DNA from: a virus
DNA length: 31,518 nt
IMG/VR virus record: IMGVR_UViG_3300020421_000089
Span: 1-31,518 of that record
Strand: one strand, 5' to 3'
Shown: positions 2-27,196 of the stretch, piece after piece
Layout of the letters: each line of letters starts with the position of its first letter
Numbering within the stretch: position 1 is the first letter of the stretch
Made by a program: the position numbers and the translations under genes
The notes under the pieces: model-generated
Database searches by the model: none
What the model was told of the DNA's origin: nothing
The model's input: the letters and a program-made list of their open reading frames with translations, nothing else

Positions 2-454
2 GATGAAAAAGAATTAAACAAGTTTGTAATTAATTTTAGAGAAGAGTTTCTTAAAGTAAAACCAGAAATGATTTCTTTTCCTAGGTCTGTCAATGGCCTA
101 TCAAAGTATTTTGATAGTGGTACAACATTTAAAAAGTCAACACCTATGCATATCAAAGGTGCTCTGATTTACAATCACAAAATCAAACAAAACAAACTTA
201 TTAATAAGTATCCTTTGATACAAGAAGGTGATAAGATTAAGTTTGTTTATCTTAAACAACCAAACCCATATACTTCAAATGTAATTACTTACATTACTAA
301 ATTACCTAAAGAGTTTGACATACACAGTTTTGTAGATTACGAATTACAGTTTGAGAAAGTTTTTGTTGAACCTTTAACATTAATATTAAACACAATCAGA
401 TGGAGTATTGATAGAACTTATGGTACTCAAGGTACATTGGAGGATTTCTTTTGA
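2..454 (+). CDS. 43: DNA polymerase, family B (T4 gp43-like), C-terminal fragment
   Basis: The reading frame is open from the window edge, so this is the last 150 residues of a longer protein; the first internal Met is at 68. The segments ISFPRSVNGLSKY, TPMHIKGALIYNH, GDKIKFVYLKQPNP and VDYELQFEKVFVEPL match the thumb and C-terminal part of T4-type replicative polymerases. The protein ends in GTLEDFF, a hydrophobic/acidic tail of the type that docks the polymerase on the gp45 sliding clamp. The polymerase and exonuclease active-site motifs lie outside the window. The codons for the final LEDFF also supply the Shine-Dalgarno (GGAGG, 439-443) and part of the TTG start of the next gene. The family call is confident; only the fragment is visible. 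Confidence 0.93.
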   Translation, partial: DEKELNKFVINFREEFLKVKPEMISFPRSVNGLSKYFDSGTTFKKSTPMHIKGALIYNHKIKQNKLINKYPLIQEGDKIKFVYLKQPNPYTSNVITYITKLPKEFDIHSFVDYELQFEKVFVEPLTLILNTIRWSIDRTYGTQGTLEDFF

Positions 455-1275
455 TAGCTAAATTACTTATAGAACACATAGAACAAAAAACAAATGAACA
501 AGAAGTTGCAGTATTATTATCAGGTGGAGTAGATTCTATATCTGTTGCATTTGCTGCACATCTTGCCTTTAAAAAGATTAGATGTTATAGTTTTCAACTT
601 GATAATAATCCATCATATGATTTTAAAAAGGCAGAAGAGATATGTAAAATAATGAAGTGGCCGTTCGTTGGTGTGAATGTACCAGTTGCCAATTTAGAAG
701 ATGATTTTAAAAGATTATTAAAACACGGATGTCAAAAGAAAACACATTTTGAGTGTGTGTATCCCTTTCTATATGTCTATGAATGGATAAGTGAAAAGTA
801 TGTATTATCTGGTTGGGCAGCAGATGGTTATTATGGTGTAAGTAAAAAGGCTTGTATGCATTTCAAAGAACCTAAATCATTGTTTGACCAATTCAGAAAT
901 GATTATTTTAAAAAAGAAAATCGTGCAGGTTATTTACAACATAAAAAACTTGCAGACAAACATAATAAAGTATTTGTAACACCATACTTAGACAAAGAAG
1001 TTAAAAATTATTTCTATCAATATGATTGGTATCAATTAAATAAACCATATCAAAAACATATGGTCAGAGATGCTTTCAAATCATACTTCAACAGAATAGG
1101 TAAAGTAAAGAATCATTTAAATTTACAATTAGATAGTGGCATAGCAAACCTGTTTGAAACTTTGCTAAATAATAATAAAATAAATTTTAATAAAAGAAAT
1201 CGCATGTTAGAGGTTTACAAAGACTGGAAAGTATGTTACAATGGTGACACTTCGTTGGAGAATTTTTTTGTATAA
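451..1275 (+). CDS. Stand-alone asparagine-synthetase-type PP-loop amidoligase (candidate DNA-base amidation enzyme)
   Basis: A 274-residue protein. The PP-loop LSGGVDS lies at 23-29. LSGWAADGYYGV at 119-130 matches the GEGADELFGGY region of asparagine synthetases. TPYLDKEVKNYF (about 177-188) matches their PFLD motif, and KHMVRDAF (202-209) followed by a KVKNHLNLQ stretch matches their C-terminal ReaF...K region. The N-terminal glutaminase domain of AsnB is absent, so free ammonia or another amine would be the nucleophile. The family adenylates a carboxylate and then forms an amide. A TTG start at 451 is set by GGAGG at 439-443 and a 4-base overlap with the polymerase stop. The C-terminus SLENFFV resembles the polymerase clamp tail LEDFF. 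It overlaps the next gene by 8 bases and heads the methyltransferase/CmoA cassette, so I infer its substrate is a carboxylated DNA base. A tRNA- or small-molecule-directed role is possible. Confidence 0.8.
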   Translation: MIAKLLIEHIEQKTNEQEVAVLLSGGVDSISVAFAAHLAFKKIRCYSFQLDNNPSYDFKKAEEICKIMKWPFVGVNVPVANLEDDFKRLLKHGCQKKTHFECVYPFLYVYEWISEKYVLSGWAADGYYGVSKKACMHFKEPKSLFDQFRNDYFKKENRAGYLQHKKLADKHNKVFVTPYLDKEVKNYFYQYDWYQLNKPYQKHMVRDAFKSYFNRIGKVKNHLNLQLDSGIANLFETLLNNNKINFNKRNRMLEVYKDWKVCYNGDTSLENFFV

Positions 1276-2422
1276 GAAGTATTTTATGAAAGATGTTATT
1301 GAAGCATCTAAAGAAGAAAAGTTTACAGTTATATCTACATTTGCTGGTGGTGGCGGTTCATCAACTGGTTACAGACTTGCAGGTGGTAAAATATTATTAG
1401 TAAATGAATTTGTTGAAGCTGCAAGACAAACATATAAAGATAATTATCCTGATACAGAAATATTACCACAAGATATAAAAGACTTAACAGGTTTTGATTT
1501 TTTAGATACTGCTGGTATAAAACCAGGTGAGTTAGACATATTAGATGGTTCACCTCCTTGTTCTGCATTTAGTATTGCAGGTAAAAGAGATAAAGGCTGG
1601 GACCAAGAGAAAGAATATTCAGATGGTAAGAAAGTAGAAAATATTGAAGACCTATTTCTAGAATATGTTAGAATAGCAAAAGAGATTAAACCAAAAGTTA
1701 TTGTTGCAGAAAATGTAAAAGGTATAACTGTTGGTGAAGCAAAACAGAAACTTAACGAGTTTATAAATGCATTTCAGAATATAGGTTATGATGTTACTTA
1801 CAAAGTTATGAATGCTGCACACTATGGTGTTCCACAAGCAAGAGAAAGAACTATGTTTGTTTGTGTAAGAGAAGATGTTTGTGAGTCTGTTGGTTTAAAT
1901 TTTATGACACTTGGTAATATATTTCCAAAAGAAAATGATGAGATGGTAACATTAAGACACGCACTTGAAGATATAGAAAACGATAAAGATGAAGAGCAAA
2001 TGTTATTAGATTATGTTCAAGCTGGTTTTCAAAAGAAATGGATAGAACTGTTAGAGTTTGACCCACCTAAACATTTAAAACCATCTGACGAAAGATTTAT
2101 TGATATTAATCCTAAAAGGTCTATGTTTAATATGATTAGGCCTTGTCAAGATTTACCTTGTCCTACATTGACACAAAGAGGTCAACAAACTGTAGTGTCT
2201 GGTGTATTTCATCCTATGAAACATAGAAAGTTTACTGTACCAGAACTAAAAAGAATTATGTCACTACCTGAAGATTTTGTAATGAAGTCAGATAAAGAAA
2301 CTGTAGCTAAAAGATTTGACCAAAGTGCTGAGAGAATTGGTCGTATGGTTGCACCTAAAATGATGGCATCACTTGCCGATGCAATTTATGTAAATATATT
2401 GGAGCCTTATAATAATGTATAA
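1268..2422 (+). CDS. C5-cytosine DNA methyltransferase paralogue A (predicted carboxymethyltransferase)
   Basis: A 384-residue C5-cytosine methyltransferase. Visible motifs are motif I FAGGGGSSTG, motif IV GSPPCSAFS with the catalytic Cys98, motif VI AENV, motif VIII QARERTMFV, a short target-recognition stretch around FNMIRPCQDLPCPTLT, motif IX KRIMSLPEDF and motif X ERIGRMVAPKMM. In motif X the usual Asn of GN.V.P is Arg (codon 2342-2344). This is the site where Asn-to-Lys makes other C5 enzymes accept carboxy-SAM. I chose the TTG start at 1268 over ATG 1241 or ATG 1286: GGAG at 1257-1260 is 7 bases upstream, and from TTG the N-terminus aligns residue for residue with paralogue B, placing the catalytic Cys at 98 in both. 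No restriction endonuclease is nearby. Methyl or carboxymethyl transfer cannot be settled from sequence alone. Confidence 0.9.
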   Translation: MYKKYFMKDVIEASKEEKFTVISTFAGGGGSSTGYRLAGGKILLVNEFVEAARQTYKDNYPDTEILPQDIKDLTGFDFLDTAGIKPGELDILDGSPPCSAFSIAGKRDKGWDQEKEYSDGKKVENIEDLFLEYVRIAKEIKPKVIVAENVKGITVGEAKQKLNEFINAFQNIGYDVTYKVMNAAHYGVPQARERTMFVCVREDVCESVGLNFMTLGNIFPKENDEMVTLRHALEDIENDKDEEQMLLDYVQAGFQKKWIELLEFDPPKHLKPSDERFIDINPKRSMFNMIRPCQDLPCPTLTQRGQQTVVSGVFHPMKHRKFTVPELKRIMSLPEDFVMKSDKETVAKRFDQSAERIGRMVAPKMMASLADAIYVNILEPYNNV

Positions 2423-3533
2423 ACCATATTATTTAAAAGATGTAATTGATAGTGAGAAAAGAGAATTGTTTACTGTAATGTCAACTTTTGCTGGTGGCGG
2501 TGGTTCATCAACTGGTTATAGATTGGCTGGTGGTAAGATACTTGCAATAAATGAGTTTGTTGAAGAGGCTAGAAAAACATATAGTGAGAATTATCCTAAT
2601 ACACCTATTATGCCTGATGATATAAAAGAGATTACAGGTAAAGATATATTAGATTTAATTAATTTGAAAGAGGGTGAACTTGATATACTTGATGGTTCAC
2701 CACCTTGTTCTGCATTTTCAGTTGCAGGTGCAATGGTACAAGGTGGTCATTCAAAAGGATTTAATCAGACTAAGAAATATTCAGATGGTAAAAAGATAGA
2801 GAATATAGAAGATTTATTTTTTGAGTATCTAAGAGTTGCAAAAGAAATCAAACCAAAAGTGATAGTGGGTGAGAATGTTGCTGGTTTGACTATGGGTGAA
2901 GCAAAAGAATACTATAACAAAATAACAAATACTTTTGAACAGATAGGTTATGATGTATCATCTAAAGTTTTAGATTCATCTCACTATGGTGTTGCACAAA
3001 CTAGAAAGAGATTAATTTTTATTGCAGTTCGTGAAGATGTAACTGCAGATGTAGGTTTAACATTTATGAATATATCAAGCGTCTTTCCTGAGAAGTTTAC
3101 AGATGCAATGACTTGTGGTGAAGTATTTGAAAACTTAGAGTATGATGAAGAAGAGATAAAAGAACTTACAGAATCATTTGCAAGAGGTTCACATTTTGAA
3201 ACAGCATCAAAGATGCCAAAAGACCCAGAGAAAGTTTTGACTGGTGCAAACTATCATCCTAAAGGCCACCACTTTAATATGAAAAGAATATCAAGACATA
3301 AACCATCACCAACGATTACAGCATCGGGTGGTTGTATTCACTGGTCTGATATGAGAAAATTAGCATTATGTGAAACAAGAAGAATAATGTCTTTACCTGA
3401 AGACTTTAAACTTACAGGTAAATGGAAACAAAAGAGTGAGCGTATGGGTAGAATGGTACCTCCTCTTATGATGAAAGCTATTGCAGAATCAGTATATGAA
3501 AAAGTATTGAAACCATACAAGGAGAAAAAATGA
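2415..3533 (+). CDS. C5-cytosine DNA methyltransferase paralogue B (predicted carboxymethyltransferase)
   Basis: A 372-residue tandem paralogue of the preceding gene, overlapping it by 8 bases. It has motif I FAGGGGSSTG, motif IV GSPPCSAFS (Cys98), motif VI GENV, motif VIII AQTRKRLIFI, a recognition stretch around HFNMKRISRHKPSPTIT, motif IX RRIMSLPEDF and motif X ERMGRMVPPLMM. Motif X again has Arg (residue 346, codon 3450-3452) in place of the family Asn. The N-terminal half is very close to paralogue A. The segment between motifs VIII and IX differs in sequence and length, and B has an insertion (AMVQGGHSKGF) after motif IV. That pattern suggests different target sequences with the same cofactor choice. 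The start ATG 2415 has GGAG at 2401-2404, a rather long spacing. Confidence 0.9.
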   Translation: MYKPYYLKDVIDSEKRELFTVMSTFAGGGGSSTGYRLAGGKILAINEFVEEARKTYSENYPNTPIMPDDIKEITGKDILDLINLKEGELDILDGSPPCSAFSVAGAMVQGGHSKGFNQTKKYSDGKKIENIEDLFFEYLRVAKEIKPKVIVGENVAGLTMGEAKEYYNKITNTFEQIGYDVSSKVLDSSHYGVAQTRKRLIFIAVREDVTADVGLTFMNISSVFPEKFTDAMTCGEVFENLEYDEEEIKELTESFARGSHFETASKMPKDPEKVLTGANYHPKGHHFNMKRISRHKPSPTITASGGCIHWSDMRKLALCETRRIMSLPEDFKLTGKWKQKSERMGRMVPPLMMKAIAESVYEKVLKPYKEKK

Positions 3534-4234
3534 CAAAGTATGATTTTACTTTTGCACACAGAGAAGAAGGATTTGACGAACACATAGAACACTCTATTCG
3601 TGGTTATTCTAATTTATTAGATGATGTTGTTAATCTTTCAAAATATTTTGTAGAACCAGATACCAAAGTTGTTGATGTTGGTTGTTCTACAGGTAAGGTT
3701 ACAAAAAGAATGATAGAATCACATTTAGATATAAACATTGATGATGTGATATATGAAGGTGTTGAACTGGCAAAAGGTTTTGAGAAACCATTAGAAAATA
3801 GAAGAAAAGAATTAAGTAAAGAATACCCAGAGAGTAATGTTAATTTTATAAATGATGATGTAAGATTTTATGAATTTAAGAATTGTTCTCTAGTAACTTC
3901 AATATTCACTTTACAATTTATGCCTATGAAAGATAGGTCTAAATTAATCTCTCAGATTTATGAAGGATTAAATGTTGGTGGTGGATTTATCTTTGCAGAG
4001 AAGTTATTATGTAGTAATGCAAAGATACAAGAAATGATGACTTTCAATTATTATGATTATAAGAGAAAACATTTTGAAGCAAAAGATATAATGGATAAAG
4101 AGAAAACATTAAGACATATGTTAAAACCAAATACTTGGAAACAAATAAAAGATATGATACTTGATGCAGGCTTTCAAGATGTACAATGTTTCTGGAGTAA
4201 TCATATGTTTGTTGGTGCATTGGCGTTAAAATAA
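3530..4234 (+). CDS. cmoA-like: CmoA-like carboxy-S-adenosylmethionine synthase
   Basis: A 234-residue class I SAM-fold protein that aligns along its length with E. coli CmoA. RGYSN (24-28) matches [14 protein letters not shown] (47-55) matches [17 protein letters not shown] (125-132) matches [18 protein letters not shown] (143-152) matches IYQGLNPGGA, FAEK (155-158) matches LSEK, and the ends FVGALALK and FGSLVALK agree. CmoA converts SAM plus prephenate to carboxy-SAM, normally for CmoB in wobble-uridine modification. No cmoB is in the window, and the gene is coupled (ATGA overlap, GGAG at 3521-3524) to two C5-methyltransferases. I therefore infer that its product feeds DNA carboxymethylation. 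The E. coli Arg199 region aligns with MDKEKTL (188-194), where the basic partner is most likely Lys192; this alignment is ambiguous and is the weak point of the call. A plain methyltransferase is the alternative. Confidence 0.85.
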
Positions 4235-4244
4235 AGGAGATAAT

Positions 4245-5291
4245 ATGACAGATTTTTTAAAAGATGTTATAAAAACAACTGGTAATGAATATGCTGCACT
4301 TGTTTCAGAAGGTGTTGAAGCTGGTGATGTAGATACATTTATTGATACTGGTTCTTATATATTTAATGCATTACTATCTGGTTCTATTAATGGTGGATTA
4401 CCTGCAAATAAAATCACTGCAATCGCTGGTGAGAGTGCAACAGGTAAAACATTTTTTGTTATGGGAATGTGTAAAAGATTTCTAGATGAAAATCCAGATG
4501 GTGGTGTTATATATTTTGAGAGTGAAAGTGCAATTACAAAACAAATGGTTATAGATAGAGGTATTGATGCAAATCGTATGGTAATACTTCCTGTAACCAC
4601 AGTACAAGAATTTAGAACACAGGCTATAAAAGTTTTAGATGCATATATAAATCAAGATGCAGCTAGTCGTAAACCTATGTTTCTTGCACTAGATTCACTT
4701 GGTATGTTATCAACAACAAAAGAAGTTGAAGATACAGCTGAGGGTAAAGAAACTAGAGATATGACTAGAGCACAATTACTCAAAGCAGCATTTAGAGTTT
4801 TAACTTTGAAACTCGGTAAAGCAAGAGTACCTATGGTAGTTACTAACCACACATATGATGTAGTTGGTTCTATGTTTCCACAAAAAGAAATGGGTGGTGG
4901 TTCTGGATTAAAATATGCAGCATCATCTATTGTTTATCTTTCAAAGAAAAAAGAAAAAGATGGAACAGAAGTTGTGGGTAATATTATACATTGTAAAAAC
5001 TTTAAATCAAGACTTACAGTTGAAAATAAAATGGTTGATGTAAGATTAACTTATAATAAAGGTCTTGATAGATATTATGGGTTACTTGAACTTGCTGAAA
5101 AGTATAAAGTGTTTAAGAAAGTTGCAACAAGATTTGAGTTACCAGATGGTTCAAAACAATATGGTAAAACTATTTTGAATGACCCAAAGAAATATTTCAC
5201 TCAAGATATTATGGACATTTTAGAAGAGTGTGCTAAGAAGGAGTTTAGATATGGCGGAACAGTTGAAGAACGCGAAACGAGCAGCGAATGA
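4245..5291 (+). CDS. uvsX: UvsX RecA-like recombinase
   Basis: A 348-residue RecA-family strand-exchange ATPase. Walker A GESATGKT is at 62-69. The Walker B-like strand is [12 protein letters not shown], and the DNA-binding loop region lies around NHTYDV and [12 protein letters not shown], as in T4 UvsX. UvsX loads on single-stranded DNA and drives recombination-dependent replication and repair in T4-like phages. A ribosome site, AAGGAG, precedes ATG 4245. The gene opens the replication block and directly follows the cytosine-modification cassette. Length and motifs fit the marine T4-like UvsX group. Confidence 0.95.
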
Positions 5292-5658
5292 TAGAACTAA
5301 ACAGTTTTTAGGTGTAGTGGCTGATGACTACGCATTTGTAGAAAACAAAGGTAAAACTAAAACAGAATGTATTGGTATCAAAGGCGGAAAGTATGATGGT
5401 ATTGTTTACAGATATGGTAAAGTTGCCGCAGTTGAAGACCAAAATAGAGTAGGTCTAGAAGCCACATTAAAATTTCAGTATAATATTGTTGACTATAATG
5501 GACTAAAAGAAGAGCACATAGGTGACGATTTTAGAAATCTAATAGGTGATATTTTATGTGATATAGTTGATACTTATTATACTTACAAACCAAAGGAAGA
5601 AAATGAATCTGGAAAATCAGACGATAGAAAAGACGACCCTAAGTCAACTGATACATAA
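5251..5658 (+). CDS. Conserved hypothetical protein between uvsX and helicase 41
   Basis: A 135-residue protein beginning [19 protein letters not shown]. The start ATG 5251 is chosen because GGAG at 5240-5243 precedes it; the upstream in-frame Met at 5230 would extend it into uvsX. It overlaps the end of uvsX by 41 bases and the start of the helicase gene by 56 bases. I recognise no domain. The middle ([28 protein letters not shown] is the region at about 28-55) is beta-rich, and the tail is short, acidic and disordered. Its position between uvsX and gene 41 is where T4 has gene 40 and suggests a replication accessory role, but I see no similarity to T4 gp40. Confidence 0.8.
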
Positions 5659-7009
5659 TGAAAACTTTAATAGAAAGGTAATACCTTTTCTAAAAAAAGG
5701 TTATTTTAAAGAGAGAAGCGAACAGATTCTTTTTGAAGAAATAAATGATTTTGTAGAAAAGTATTCTAACCCACCGACAAAGGAAGCGTTAGAGATTGAG
5801 ATTGACAATAGAAAAGATTTGTCAGATACCGAACATAAACAAACTGTTGAACTATTAAAAACACTAAAACATAATGATGTAGATTTTAAGTGGTTAACAG
5901 ATAGTGTTGAAAAGTTTTGTAAAGATAGAGCAGTATATAATGCTGTTGTAGATAGTATTAGAATTATTGATAACAAAGATAAAGATAATACACCAGAATC
6001 TATACCATCAATATTATCAGATGCTTTATCTGTATCTTTTGATAATCACATTGGACACGATTATATAGAAGAAGCTCAAAAGAGGTATAATTATTATCAT
6101 ACAGTAGAAGATAGAATACCCTTTGACTTAGAATATTTTAATAAAATTACTAAAGGTGGTTTACCGAATAAGACATTAAACATTGCACTTGCTGGTACAG
6201 GTGTTGGTAAATCATTATTTATGTGTCATATGGCTGCATCAACATTGATGCAAGGTAAGAATGTATTGTACATTACACTAGAGATGGCAGAAGAAAAGAT
6301 TGCAGAAAGAATAGATGCAAATCTTATGAATTTGTCTATAGATGATTTACACGAATTACCAAAGAAAATGTTTGATGATAAGATTAATAGTATATCAAAG
6401 AAGACAGTTGGTAAATTAGTAATAAAAGAATATCCAACTGCATCGGCACACAGTGGCCATTTTAAAAGTTTAATCAAAGAACTTGCATTAAAGAAAACAT
6501 TTAAACCTGATGTTATTTTTATTGATTATTTAAATATATGTTCATCATCAAGGTTCAAAGGTAATGCAAGTGTCGGTTCTTATTTTTACATAAAGGCAAT
6601 AGCAGAAGAATTAAGAGGATTAGCAGTTGAGTCTAATGTTCCGATAGTTTCTGCAACACAAACAACAAGAAGTGCATATACTTCTACAGATGTAGGTTTA
6701 GAAGATACTTCAGAAAGTTTTGGTTTACCAGCAACTGCAGATTTAATGTTTGCATTAATATCCACAGAAGAGTTAGAAGATTTAAATCAGATAATGATTA
6801 AACAATTAAAAAACAGATACAACGACCCAACAATGAATAAAAGATTTATTTTAGGAATTGATAGAGCTAAAATGAGATTATATGATGTTGAACAAGTTGC
6901 TCAAAAAGATGTTGTTGACTCAGGTCAAGATGAACCAGTCTTTGATAATACAAGTGTAGGAAATAGATTGGAGAAGTCTTATGAGAAATTCTCGGACCTC
7001 AAAATATAG
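5603..7009 (+). CDS. 41: Replicative DNA helicase, DnaB-like (T4 gp41-like)
   Basis: A 468-residue RecA-fold hexameric helicase. Walker A GTGVGKS is at 198-204, Walker B is PDVIFIDYLNIC, and the helicase motif ISATQTTRSAY follows. The N-terminal domain, about 1-150, is of the DnaB/gp41 type. The start ATG 5603 has AAGGA five bases upstream. The upstream in-frame ATG 5567 lies deep inside the preceding gene and lacks a ribosome site. The helicase unwinds the lagging-strand template and recruits the primase, which here is encoded separately at 24134. The gene end overlaps the next small gene by 29 bases. Confidence 0.95.
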   Translation: MNLENQTIEKTTLSQLIHNENFNRKVIPFLKKGYFKERSEQILFEEINDFVEKYSNPPTKEALEIEIDNRKDLSDTEHKQTVELLKTLKHNDVDFKWLTDSVEKFCKDRAVYNAVVDSIRIIDNKDKDNTPESIPSILSDALSVSFDNHIGHDYIEEAQKRYNYYHTVEDRIPFDLEYFNKITKGGLPNKTLNIALAGTGVGKSLFMCHMAASTLMQGKNVLYITLEMAEEKIAERIDANLMNLSIDDLHELPKKMFDDKINSISKKTVGKLVIKEYPTASAHSGHFKSLIKELALKKTFKPDVIFIDYLNICSSSRFKGNASVGSYFYIKAIAEELRGLAVESNVPIVSATQTTRSAYTSTDVGLEDTSESFGLPATADLMFALISTEELEDLNQIMIKQLKNRYNDPTMNKRFILGIDRAKMRLYDVEQVAQKDVVDSGQDEPVFDNTSVGNRLEKSYEKFSDLKI

Positions 7010-7205
7010 AAAAAATAAAATAAAATATTATGTTGATGTCACTTGGAGAAACAAAGAAGCAGTTTATGTTGTTGTTGAATTACCAACAAATGATGTTGTC
7101 AAAACATTTAAGTTTAAGGAAGACGCTGAAGATATGGCAGAACAATTAATGAAAGTTAAACCTTTTGGTCATCAACCATTACCTAAATTCTTAAAGGAAC
7201 AATAA
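6981..7205 (+). CDS. Small hypothetical protein
   Basis: A 74-residue basic protein starting MRNSRTSKYRKNKIKYYVDV. It is preceded by GGAG at 6970-6973 and overlaps the end of the helicase gene. It has a short beta-rich core (YYVDVTWRNKEAVYVVVEL) followed by a helix with FKEDAEDMAEQL. I recognise no family. Coupling to the helicase and the oxygenase genes (TAATG junction at 7203-7207) makes it a real gene. Its function is not inferable. Confidence 0.75.
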   Translation: MRNSRTSKYRKNKIKYYVDVTWRNKEAVYVVVELPTNDVVKTFKFKEDAEDMAEQLMKVKPFGHQPLPKFLKEQ

Positions 7206-7780
7206 TGAACTATAATGAACGAAAAAGATATAAAGATGCAAAGTTTTTTAAGTTTAGTGAAGAATATCCTGTAATTATGAAAACATATCCTGATTGGAAA
7301 GAAATAAATCCTATTCTTGAAAAATATATCAGAGAACAAGGTGATAGAAAAAATAAAAGAACTAATGTAAAAGCATCAATGACAGAGTGGAATATGCAAG
7401 TTGAAGCTGGCGGTGAACACTTTCAAAAGATATGTGATTTTGCAAGAGAGTTGTCTTTAGAAAATTCACCTGTACAATTTATTCCAGATGTTTATGATTG
7501 TTGGGGTGCAGTTTATAGAAAAGGTGAATTTACTCAATCACACGACCACTGGCCATCTATTTGGAGTTGGTGTTATTATGTAAATGTTTCTTCTAAGTGT
7601 TCACCACTACATTTTAAGAATGCAAGTGGTATTCTTAATGAACCACTTAATGTACAACCAAGTAATGGTTTGATGGTTATATTTCCAGGATGGGTTAAAC
7701 ACGAAGTTAAACCACAAATGTGTGACCACGAAAGAGTTATGATTGCTGGTAATATAAATGCAAGAGGTGCTGCATTTTAA
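7205..7780 (+). CDS. 2OG-Fe(II) oxygenase-like protein, paralogue 1
   Basis: A 191-residue double-stranded beta-helix oxygenase of the small phage type. The iron-site region QSHDHWPS holds His113, Asp114 and His115. FPGWVKHEV supplies His166, and HERVMIAGNI supplies Arg177 for 2-oxoglutarate. The shape (HxH/HD early, FP.W..H late, then R) resembles the putative 2OG-Fe(II) oxygenase family common in marine phages. The substrate is unknown. The gene is followed by a diverged tandem copy with a 1-base overlap (TAATG), so the two may form a heteromer or have split substrates. Confidence 0.8.
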   Translation: MNYNERKRYKDAKFFKFSEEYPVIMKTYPDWKEINPILEKYIREQGDRKNKRTNVKASMTEWNMQVEAGGEHFQKICDFARELSLENSPVQFIPDVYDCWGAVYRKGEFTQSHDHWPSIWSWCYYVNVSSKCSPLHFKNASGILNEPLNVQPSNGLMVIFPGWVKHEVKPQMCDHERVMIAGNINARGAAF

Positions 7781-8313
7781 TGAAAGAAGTTACTTTTACA
7801 AAAAGGGTAAAAATTGTAGAATCAATTTATGATGACCACGAAACATTAAACCCTAAATTAGAAAAGATAATTAGAGAACAAGGTGATAGACAAAATTATC
7901 GTACAGCTTTAAAAGCACATATGACAGAAATGAATATGTTAAAAGAAGATAATAGTGAGCCTTTTCACGAATTATCTGATTACATATACAAAGAATCATT
8001 AAGTATATCTCCTGCAGTTTACAAACCAACTTTTATAGATTGTTGGGGTGGTTTATATAAAGTTGGTCATCACGCTGAAATACACGACCACTGGCCTGCT
8101 TTATATAGTTTTGTGTATTATGTTAATGTGTCTGAAGAGTGTTCACCACTTGTGTTAACAGATTGTGGGTTTCATTATATCAAACCAAAGAATGGTTTAC
8201 TTACAGTATTTCCTGGTTGGATTAAACATTTTGTACCAAAACAAGAAAGTTCACACGAAAGAATAATAGTTTCAGGAAATATATCACCAAAAAACATTTA
8301 CAATTCCACTTGA
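7780..8313 (+). CDS. 2OG-Fe(II) oxygenase-like protein, paralogue 2
   Basis: A 177-residue tandem paralogue of the previous gene. It shares IIREQGDRQN (30-39), IHDHWPALYSFVYYVNVS (101-118), a late FPGWIKHFV with His150 and ERIIVSGNIS with Arg161. The candidate iron ligands are His102, Asp103 and His104 plus His150, all kept, so both copies look catalytically intact. Its stop codon overlaps the -35 element of the downstream promoter. No substrate can be assigned; peptide proline hydroxylation and base or nucleotide oxidation are both possible for small phage oxygenases. Confidence 0.8.
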   Translation: MKEVTFTKRVKIVESIYDDHETLNPKLEKIIREQGDRQNYRTALKAHMTEMNMLKEDNSEPFHELSDYIYKESLSISPAVYKPTFIDCWGGLYKVGHHAEIHDHWPALYSFVYYVNVSEECSPLVLTDCGFHYIKPKNGLLTVFPGWIKHFVPKQESSHERIIVSGNISPKNIYNST

Positions 8314-27050: not shown

Positions 27051-27196
27051 TGCCAGGAAAAACAATTTATTGCGATTCCTGTGAAGCCGTATTTAAAATA
27101 AATCATACAATGGATGATGAGTATTATAAAATAACTCATTGTCCATTTTGCGGAGAAGAACTAGATGATGAGTATGTAGATGAAGACACAGAGTAA
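27050..27196 (+). CDS. Small zinc-ribbon protein
   Basis: A 48-residue protein starting at ATG 27050, coupled to the reductase stop (TAATG). CDSC (8-11) and CPFC (31-34) form a four-Cys zinc ribbon, and the tail is strongly acidic. It overlaps the following nuclease gene by 17 bases. Similar mini zinc ribbons accompany phage nucleotide-metabolism genes, but no function is known. Confidence 0.8.
   Translation: MPGKTIYCDSCEAVFKINHTMDDEYYKITHCPFCGEELDDEYVDEDTE

Follow-up and report, generated by a model that had tools for sequence, protein, structure and literature searches.

The window, a 31,518-base viral fragment from IMG/VR to which the gene absences given below apply (other parts of the phage lie outside its scope), carries four genes on the plus strand at positions 451 to 4234. 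They encode an amide ligase (CmoY), two DNA cytosine C5-transferases (CmoX copies 1 and 2), and a CmoA homologue, with overlaps of 4 to 35 bases between adjacent genes. The original prediction had described this stretch as four overlapping genes for an AsnB-type ligase, two C5-cytosine transferases, and CmoA, and matches to PF00733, PF00145, and TIGR00740 bore it out. The features are given below, with the active-site codons placed by alignment with SpCmoX, the CmoX of Synechococcus phage S-B43.

451..1275, plus strand: CmoY-type ATP-dependent amide ligase, 274 amino acids (Asn_synthase PF00733, 1.1e-13; TTG start)
1268..2422, plus strand: CmoX copy 1, putative DNA cytosine carboxymethyltransferase of the X1 lineage (PF00145, 1.5e-54)
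1559..1561, plus strand: catalytic Cys codon (SPPC) of CmoX copy 1, aligned with SpCmoX Cys98
2342..2344, plus strand: Arg codon replacing the motif X Asn in CmoX copy 1, aligned with SpCmoX Arg350
2415..3533, plus strand: CmoX copy 2, putative DNA cytosine carboxymethyltransferase of the SpCmoX-like lineage, 372 amino acids (PF00145, 1.9e-55)
2706..2708, plus strand: catalytic Cys codon (SPPC) of CmoX copy 2, aligned with SpCmoX Cys98
3450..3452, plus strand: Arg codon replacing the motif X Asn in CmoX copy 2, aligned with SpCmoX Arg350
3530..4234, plus strand: CmoA, putative carboxy-SAM synthase, 234 amino acids (TIGR00740, 1.5e-34)

The TTG start codon of CmoY at 451 has the sequence GGAGG seven bases upstream. 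CmoX copy 1 would have 384 amino acids from a TTG at 1268 or 393 amino acids from an ATG at 1241; the TTG is the more likely start, because it fits the N terminus of the family and has GGAG seven bases upstream.

The gene order in the window is DNA polymerase, CmoY, CmoX, CmoX, CmoA, and uvsX, and genes of the three families CmoA, CmoX, and CmoY are adjacent to each other in a phage genome. The end of the DNA polymerase, UvsX, a DnaB-type helicase, a primase, and an RNase H are similar to those of Kyanoviridae and their relatives (Melnitz, HTVC008M, and P-SSM4), which indicates that the source of the window is a T4-like marine phage. As had been noted, neither cmoB nor a restriction enzyme was recognized next to the cassette. 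No cmoB was recognized among the scanned genes of the 31,518-base fragment, and no restriction endonuclease gene adjoins the CmoX genes, whose neighbors are DNA polymerase, CmoY, CmoA, and UvsX. The sole nuclease-like gene of a restriction kind that we noted is a PDDEXK_15 gene at 27180, 23 kb away. PADLOC assigned the CmoX proteins to generic type II methyltransferase models and to nothing else, and no Rfam matches or tRNAs were found in the window. Two tandem 2OG-Fe(II) oxygenase genes (PF13759) lie at 7205 to 8313, about 3 kb downstream of the cassette; they are common in such phages, and no link to the cassette was seen.

The original prediction had left it undecided whether this system is already published, which it is. 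In December 2025, Yang et al. described the same chemistry for Synechococcus phage S-B43 and its CmoA-CmoX-CmoY genes (Nat Commun, 7 Dec 2025; PMC12783734), the one study on the topic that the literature yielded. There, CmoA makes carboxy-SAM (Cx-SAM) with a kcat ten times that of the Escherichia coli enzyme, CmoX forms 5-carboxymethylcytosine (5cxmC) in GC motifs and requires Arg350 in the place of the motif X Asn, and CmoY joins the 5cxmC carboxyl group to glycine, the virion DNA containing 5gcxmC (PMC12783734). The predicted logic, in which CmoA provides Cx-SAM, C5-transferases with an active-site Arg form 5cxmC, and an AsnB-type ligase makes an amide of it, matches this biochemistry on orthologous proteins. 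One CmoX was assayed in that study, from a phage other than that of the window, and 5,615 candidate CmoX sequences were collected across IMG/VR, UniProt, and MGnify (PMC12783734). Since the window itself comes from IMG/VR, it may well be among these candidates.

The CmoA of the window scores 119.8 bits against TIGR00740, below the curated cutoff of 193.3, and we counted it as a member of the family by sequence. It is 61% identical over its full length to the assayed S-B43 enzyme (SpCmoA) and matches the CmoA structures 4gek and 1im8 with E values of 7e-27 to 3e-28. In E. coli CmoA, Arg199 forms a salt bridge with the carboxylate of Cx-SAM (PMC3663124). The equivalent position in the phage CmoA proteins is an invariant Glu (E191), and a nearly invariant Arg (R195) is found one helical turn on. 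SpCmoA, which is active, shows this arrangement too, so that the Glu need not speak against activity.

Both CmoX copies have SPPC, and the basic residue that had been predicted in the place of the motif X Asn is by alignment an Arg in each of them (R368 in copy 1, numbered from ATG 1241, and R346 in copy 2). The closest solved structure for both is 8YF3, that of SpCmoX (1.6e-111 for copy 1 and 2.2e-151 for copy 2), to which copy 1 is 54% and copy 2 is 63% identical over the full length. SPPC is present in all of 142 aligned CmoX-like proteins and the Arg in 140 of them, the two exceptions being a truncated sequence and the enzyme of phage Melnitz, which has a Leu. The cofactor residues of SpCmoX (F25, E47, F48, and D69) are invariant in all filled columns of the same 142 proteins. 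The AlphaFold model of copy 1 has a middling pLDDT of 78, and no conclusions are based on it. Together, these residues and identities are consistent with both copies acting as carboxymethyltransferases.

CmoY has an AsnB-type PP-loop synthetase domain with SGGxDS and has no glutaminase domain; its Asn_synthase match is limited to the PP-loop half. The AlphaFold model (pLDDT of 90) consists of the synthetase domain alone and resembles beta-lactam synthetase and asparagine synthetase with Z scores of about 23, the matches being confined to their synthetase domains. CmoY is 47.8% identical over its full length to the S-B43 ligase (SpCmoY). The window and SpCmoY agree in 52 of the 53 CmoY columns with a conservation of at least 95%, the exception being Lys173/Ile. 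The missing glutaminase domain makes glutamine-derived ammonia unlikely, and this absence, the orthology to the glycine-using SpCmoY, and the agreement in 52 of 53 conserved columns make glycine the likeliest amine. The expected product would be the glycine amide 5gcxmC (dC +115.03 Da) rather than carbamoylmethylcytosine (+57.02 Da). The original prediction had named 5-carbamoylmethylcytosine or another amide; the first is disfavored by the lack of a glutaminase domain and by the glycine-using ortholog, and a glycine amide falls under the second. The same pathway with a different amine at the CmoY step, either free ammonia to give 5-carbamoylmethylcytosine or another amino acid, seems unlikely to us. 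The identity to SpCmoY is modest, and ligase clusters with other predicted amines have been described, but the putative ammonia-using cluster has the glutaminase domain that is missing here (PMC12783734), and the near-complete agreement with SpCmoY in the strongly conserved columns also argues for glycine.

The two CmoX copies belong to two lineages. Their catalytic domains are 65% identical and their target-recognition regions 31% identical, and within the recognition region ASGGxIHW is common to copy 2 and SpCmoX, while copy 1 differs. In a maximum-likelihood tree of 61 CmoX proteins, copy 1 falls into a deep clade (99/91) with stand-alone enzymes of other phages (L018, L028, and L035), and copy 2 falls into a large clade (100/96) with the enzymes of S-B43 and S-CRM01. 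Each of the two lineages is also found alone in other phages. In two related phages (L010 and L011), copy 1 is 90% conserved, and the second CmoX is 62% identical to that of the window, as if it had been replaced. Another tandem arrangement of CmoX genes, of different lineages, is found in L079 and L157-L160, so that such pairs arose at least twice. Tandem CmoX genes are absent from the main text of the S-B43 study (PMC12783734). In another locus (L015, positions 4884 to 6004), a frameshift splits the second CmoX; L012, although nearly identical, does not share it, and it reflects either a sequencing error or decay.

Even less probable than a different amine is that one CmoX has changed to making plain 5-methylcytosine with SAM or has become inactive, so that a single CmoX matters. 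Copy 1 would be the candidate: its identity to SpCmoX is just 54%, and we know of no enzyme of the X1 lineage with known activity. However, it keeps SPPC, the Arg, and all cofactor contacts, it is more conserved in the kin phages than the second copy, which seems to have been replaced there, and in L018 and L028 an enzyme of its lineage is the sole CmoX accompanying CmoA and CmoY. We favor two active CmoX enzymes, for which the diverged recognition regions predict two sequence contexts. Since copy 2 has the same ASGGxIHW as SpCmoX, GC is its most likely target, too. Dinucleotide odds were considered as a clue to the target sites. The GpC odds are 0.98 in the window versus 0.71 in the S-B43 locus and 0.66 in the S-CRM01 locus, from which we draw no conclusion; the CpG odds are 0.37 in the window but are low in the S-B43 and S-CRM01 loci, too, and are uninformative on target sites. 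A wider proposal, on which we are evenly divided, is that the phage combines CmoX enzymes of two lineages with a single CmoA and a single CmoY, and so marks two sequence contexts with one carboxymethyl-amide chemistry. In kin phages the second enzyme would be exchanged, as though host nucleases were driving a reshuffling of specificity.

We investigated the cassette in a survey of 166 loci, a few of which share one contig and are hence counted twice. The order CmoY-CmoX-CmoA was found in 75 of the 166, and CmoX-CmoA in 32, some of them cut by contig ends. A minority of the cassettes have two CmoX genes. When loci were retrieved by CmoA alone, CmoX adjoined CmoA in 79 of 88, and in six of the other nine CmoA lies at or near a contig edge. 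Dozens of further viral contigs share the CmoY-CmoX-CmoA order, so that the cassette is not a chance arrangement. The automatic annotations of the homologues (DNA-cytosine methyltransferase, tRNA methyltransferase, and asparagine synthase) would fit ordinary uses of these genes, with the two transferases as methyltransferases of an orphan or restriction-modification type, CmoA in tRNA cmo5U formation, and the ligase as an asparagine synthetase that has nothing to do with them. Such uses are highly improbable given the adjacency conserved across phages, the lack of an adjoining cmoB, and the direct biochemistry on orthologs (PMC12783734). A plain methyltransferase or restriction-modification reading was rejected because of the Arg for Asn in CmoX, the lack of an adjoining restriction gene, and the published orthologs.

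The survey also showed variants of the cassette. In L046 (positions 1442 to 4752) and L047 (positions 492 to 3814), a ligase only 25% identical to the CmoY of the window is located between similar CmoX and CmoA genes, and these ligases are candidates for using another amine. A RimK-like ATP-grasp gene upstream of the cassettes in L012 and L015 was considered as a substitute for CmoY. This was not supported, as the gene is also found beside cassettes with CmoY, and Melnitz has it although it lacks such a cassette. In L028 (positions 3853 to 5822), CmoX-CmoY-CmoA is directly followed by genes for KdsA (3-deoxy-8-phosphooctulonate synthase) and serine hydroxymethyltransferase. The latter enzyme could supply glycine for CmoY there; as a regular glycine-supplying partner it was dismissed, being seen in L028 only.

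Further relatives of the cassette genes were found in bacteria. Two alphaproteobacterial contigs, L169 (positions 2276 to 7146; a SAR116 single cell, 148 kb) and L171 (positions 2769 to 7071; a metagenome-assembled genome, just after glmS), have in order a serine resolvase gene, a CmoA homologue (37 to 42% identical), a gene for a protein of about 325 amino acids, and a fused gene for a CmoY-like ligase and a CmoX-like transferase. The Arg is kept in the fusion of L169, and the L171 gene is cut off where its contig stops. Phage structural genes were not recognized near these two cassettes, which are perhaps a chromosomal mobile island with the same DNA modification. Prophage-like regions of Endozoicomonas (L168, positions 5424 to 7657, and L170, positions 5463 to 7674) have a ParB-like gene, a CmoX relative, which is interrupted in L170, and a distant CmoA (about 25% identical).

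We consider it very probable that the window, from a T4-like marine phage, holds a DNA hypermodification cassette of the CmoA-CmoX-CmoY type, with CmoX present twice, and that this cassette forms 5cxmC and then an amide of it. Each enzymatic step has been demonstrated for orthologs, and by analogy the four proteins of the window would act as follows. CmoA would convert SAM and prephenate to Cx-SAM. Both CmoX enzymes would flip out a DNA cytosine, the Cys of SPPC would attack C6, and the carboxymethyl group would be transferred to C5 to give 5cxmC, with the active-site Arg that replaces the motif X Asn holding the carboxylate. CmoY would adenylate the carboxylate of 5cxmC for coupling to an amine; with glycine, the most likely one, this would give 5-glycylcarboxymethylcytosine. 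With different recognition regions, the two CmoX enzymes would probably act in two sequence contexts. The presumed benefit to the phage is protection from host nucleases.

The original interpretation was thus supported in part, and that a published mechanism had been reached from the raw sequence alone shows that the reading of the genes was sound. 5cxmC was considered unnatural until 2025, so that each further cassette can readily supply new carboxymethyltransferases with which to label DNA at chosen sites. A second CmoX lineage with probably different target sites would be useful above all as such a source of labeling enzymes. The cassette also bears on the diversification of DNA protection in phages, as writers that can be exchanged for each other may work with a single cofactor enzyme and a single ligase.

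Compared with known systems, we infer that the cassette is a further member of the published one, with paired writers of probably different specificity as a modest extension. S-B43, also a T4-like phage related to Kyanoviridae, has the same three families as full-length orthologs with the same active-site residues (PDB 8YF3) and a ligase with the PP-loop domain only. It has, however, one CmoX and the order A-Y-X, whereas the window has two tandem CmoX genes of two lineages and the order Y-X-X-A. Synechococcus phage S-CRM01 (HQ615693) also has overlapping genes beside replication genes, with a CmoA 60% identical to that of the window and a CmoX 62% identical to copy 2, but unlike in the window, no CmoY adjoins the pair. 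The M.MpeI variant N374K, in which a basic residue for the motif X Asn enables the use of Cx-SAM (Wang and Kohli 2021, as cited in PMC12783734), differs from the CmoX copies in being engineered, in having Lys instead of Arg, and in its CG target. Methylophilales phage Melnitz (MZ577097) has a C5-transferase with SPPC, about 42% identical, after its DNA polymerase gene, but this enzyme has Leu where CmoX has the Arg, the phage gave no CmoA match, and a Tet/JBP oxygenase is encoded alongside. Its locus (L004, positions 3743 to 7823) encodes the C5-transferase, the Tet/JBP oxygenase, a protein of 427 amino acids, and a P-loop kinase-like protein. The Melnitz cassette probably makes a different cytosine hypermodification, and its enzyme serves as a natural contrast to the Arg-bearing CmoX.
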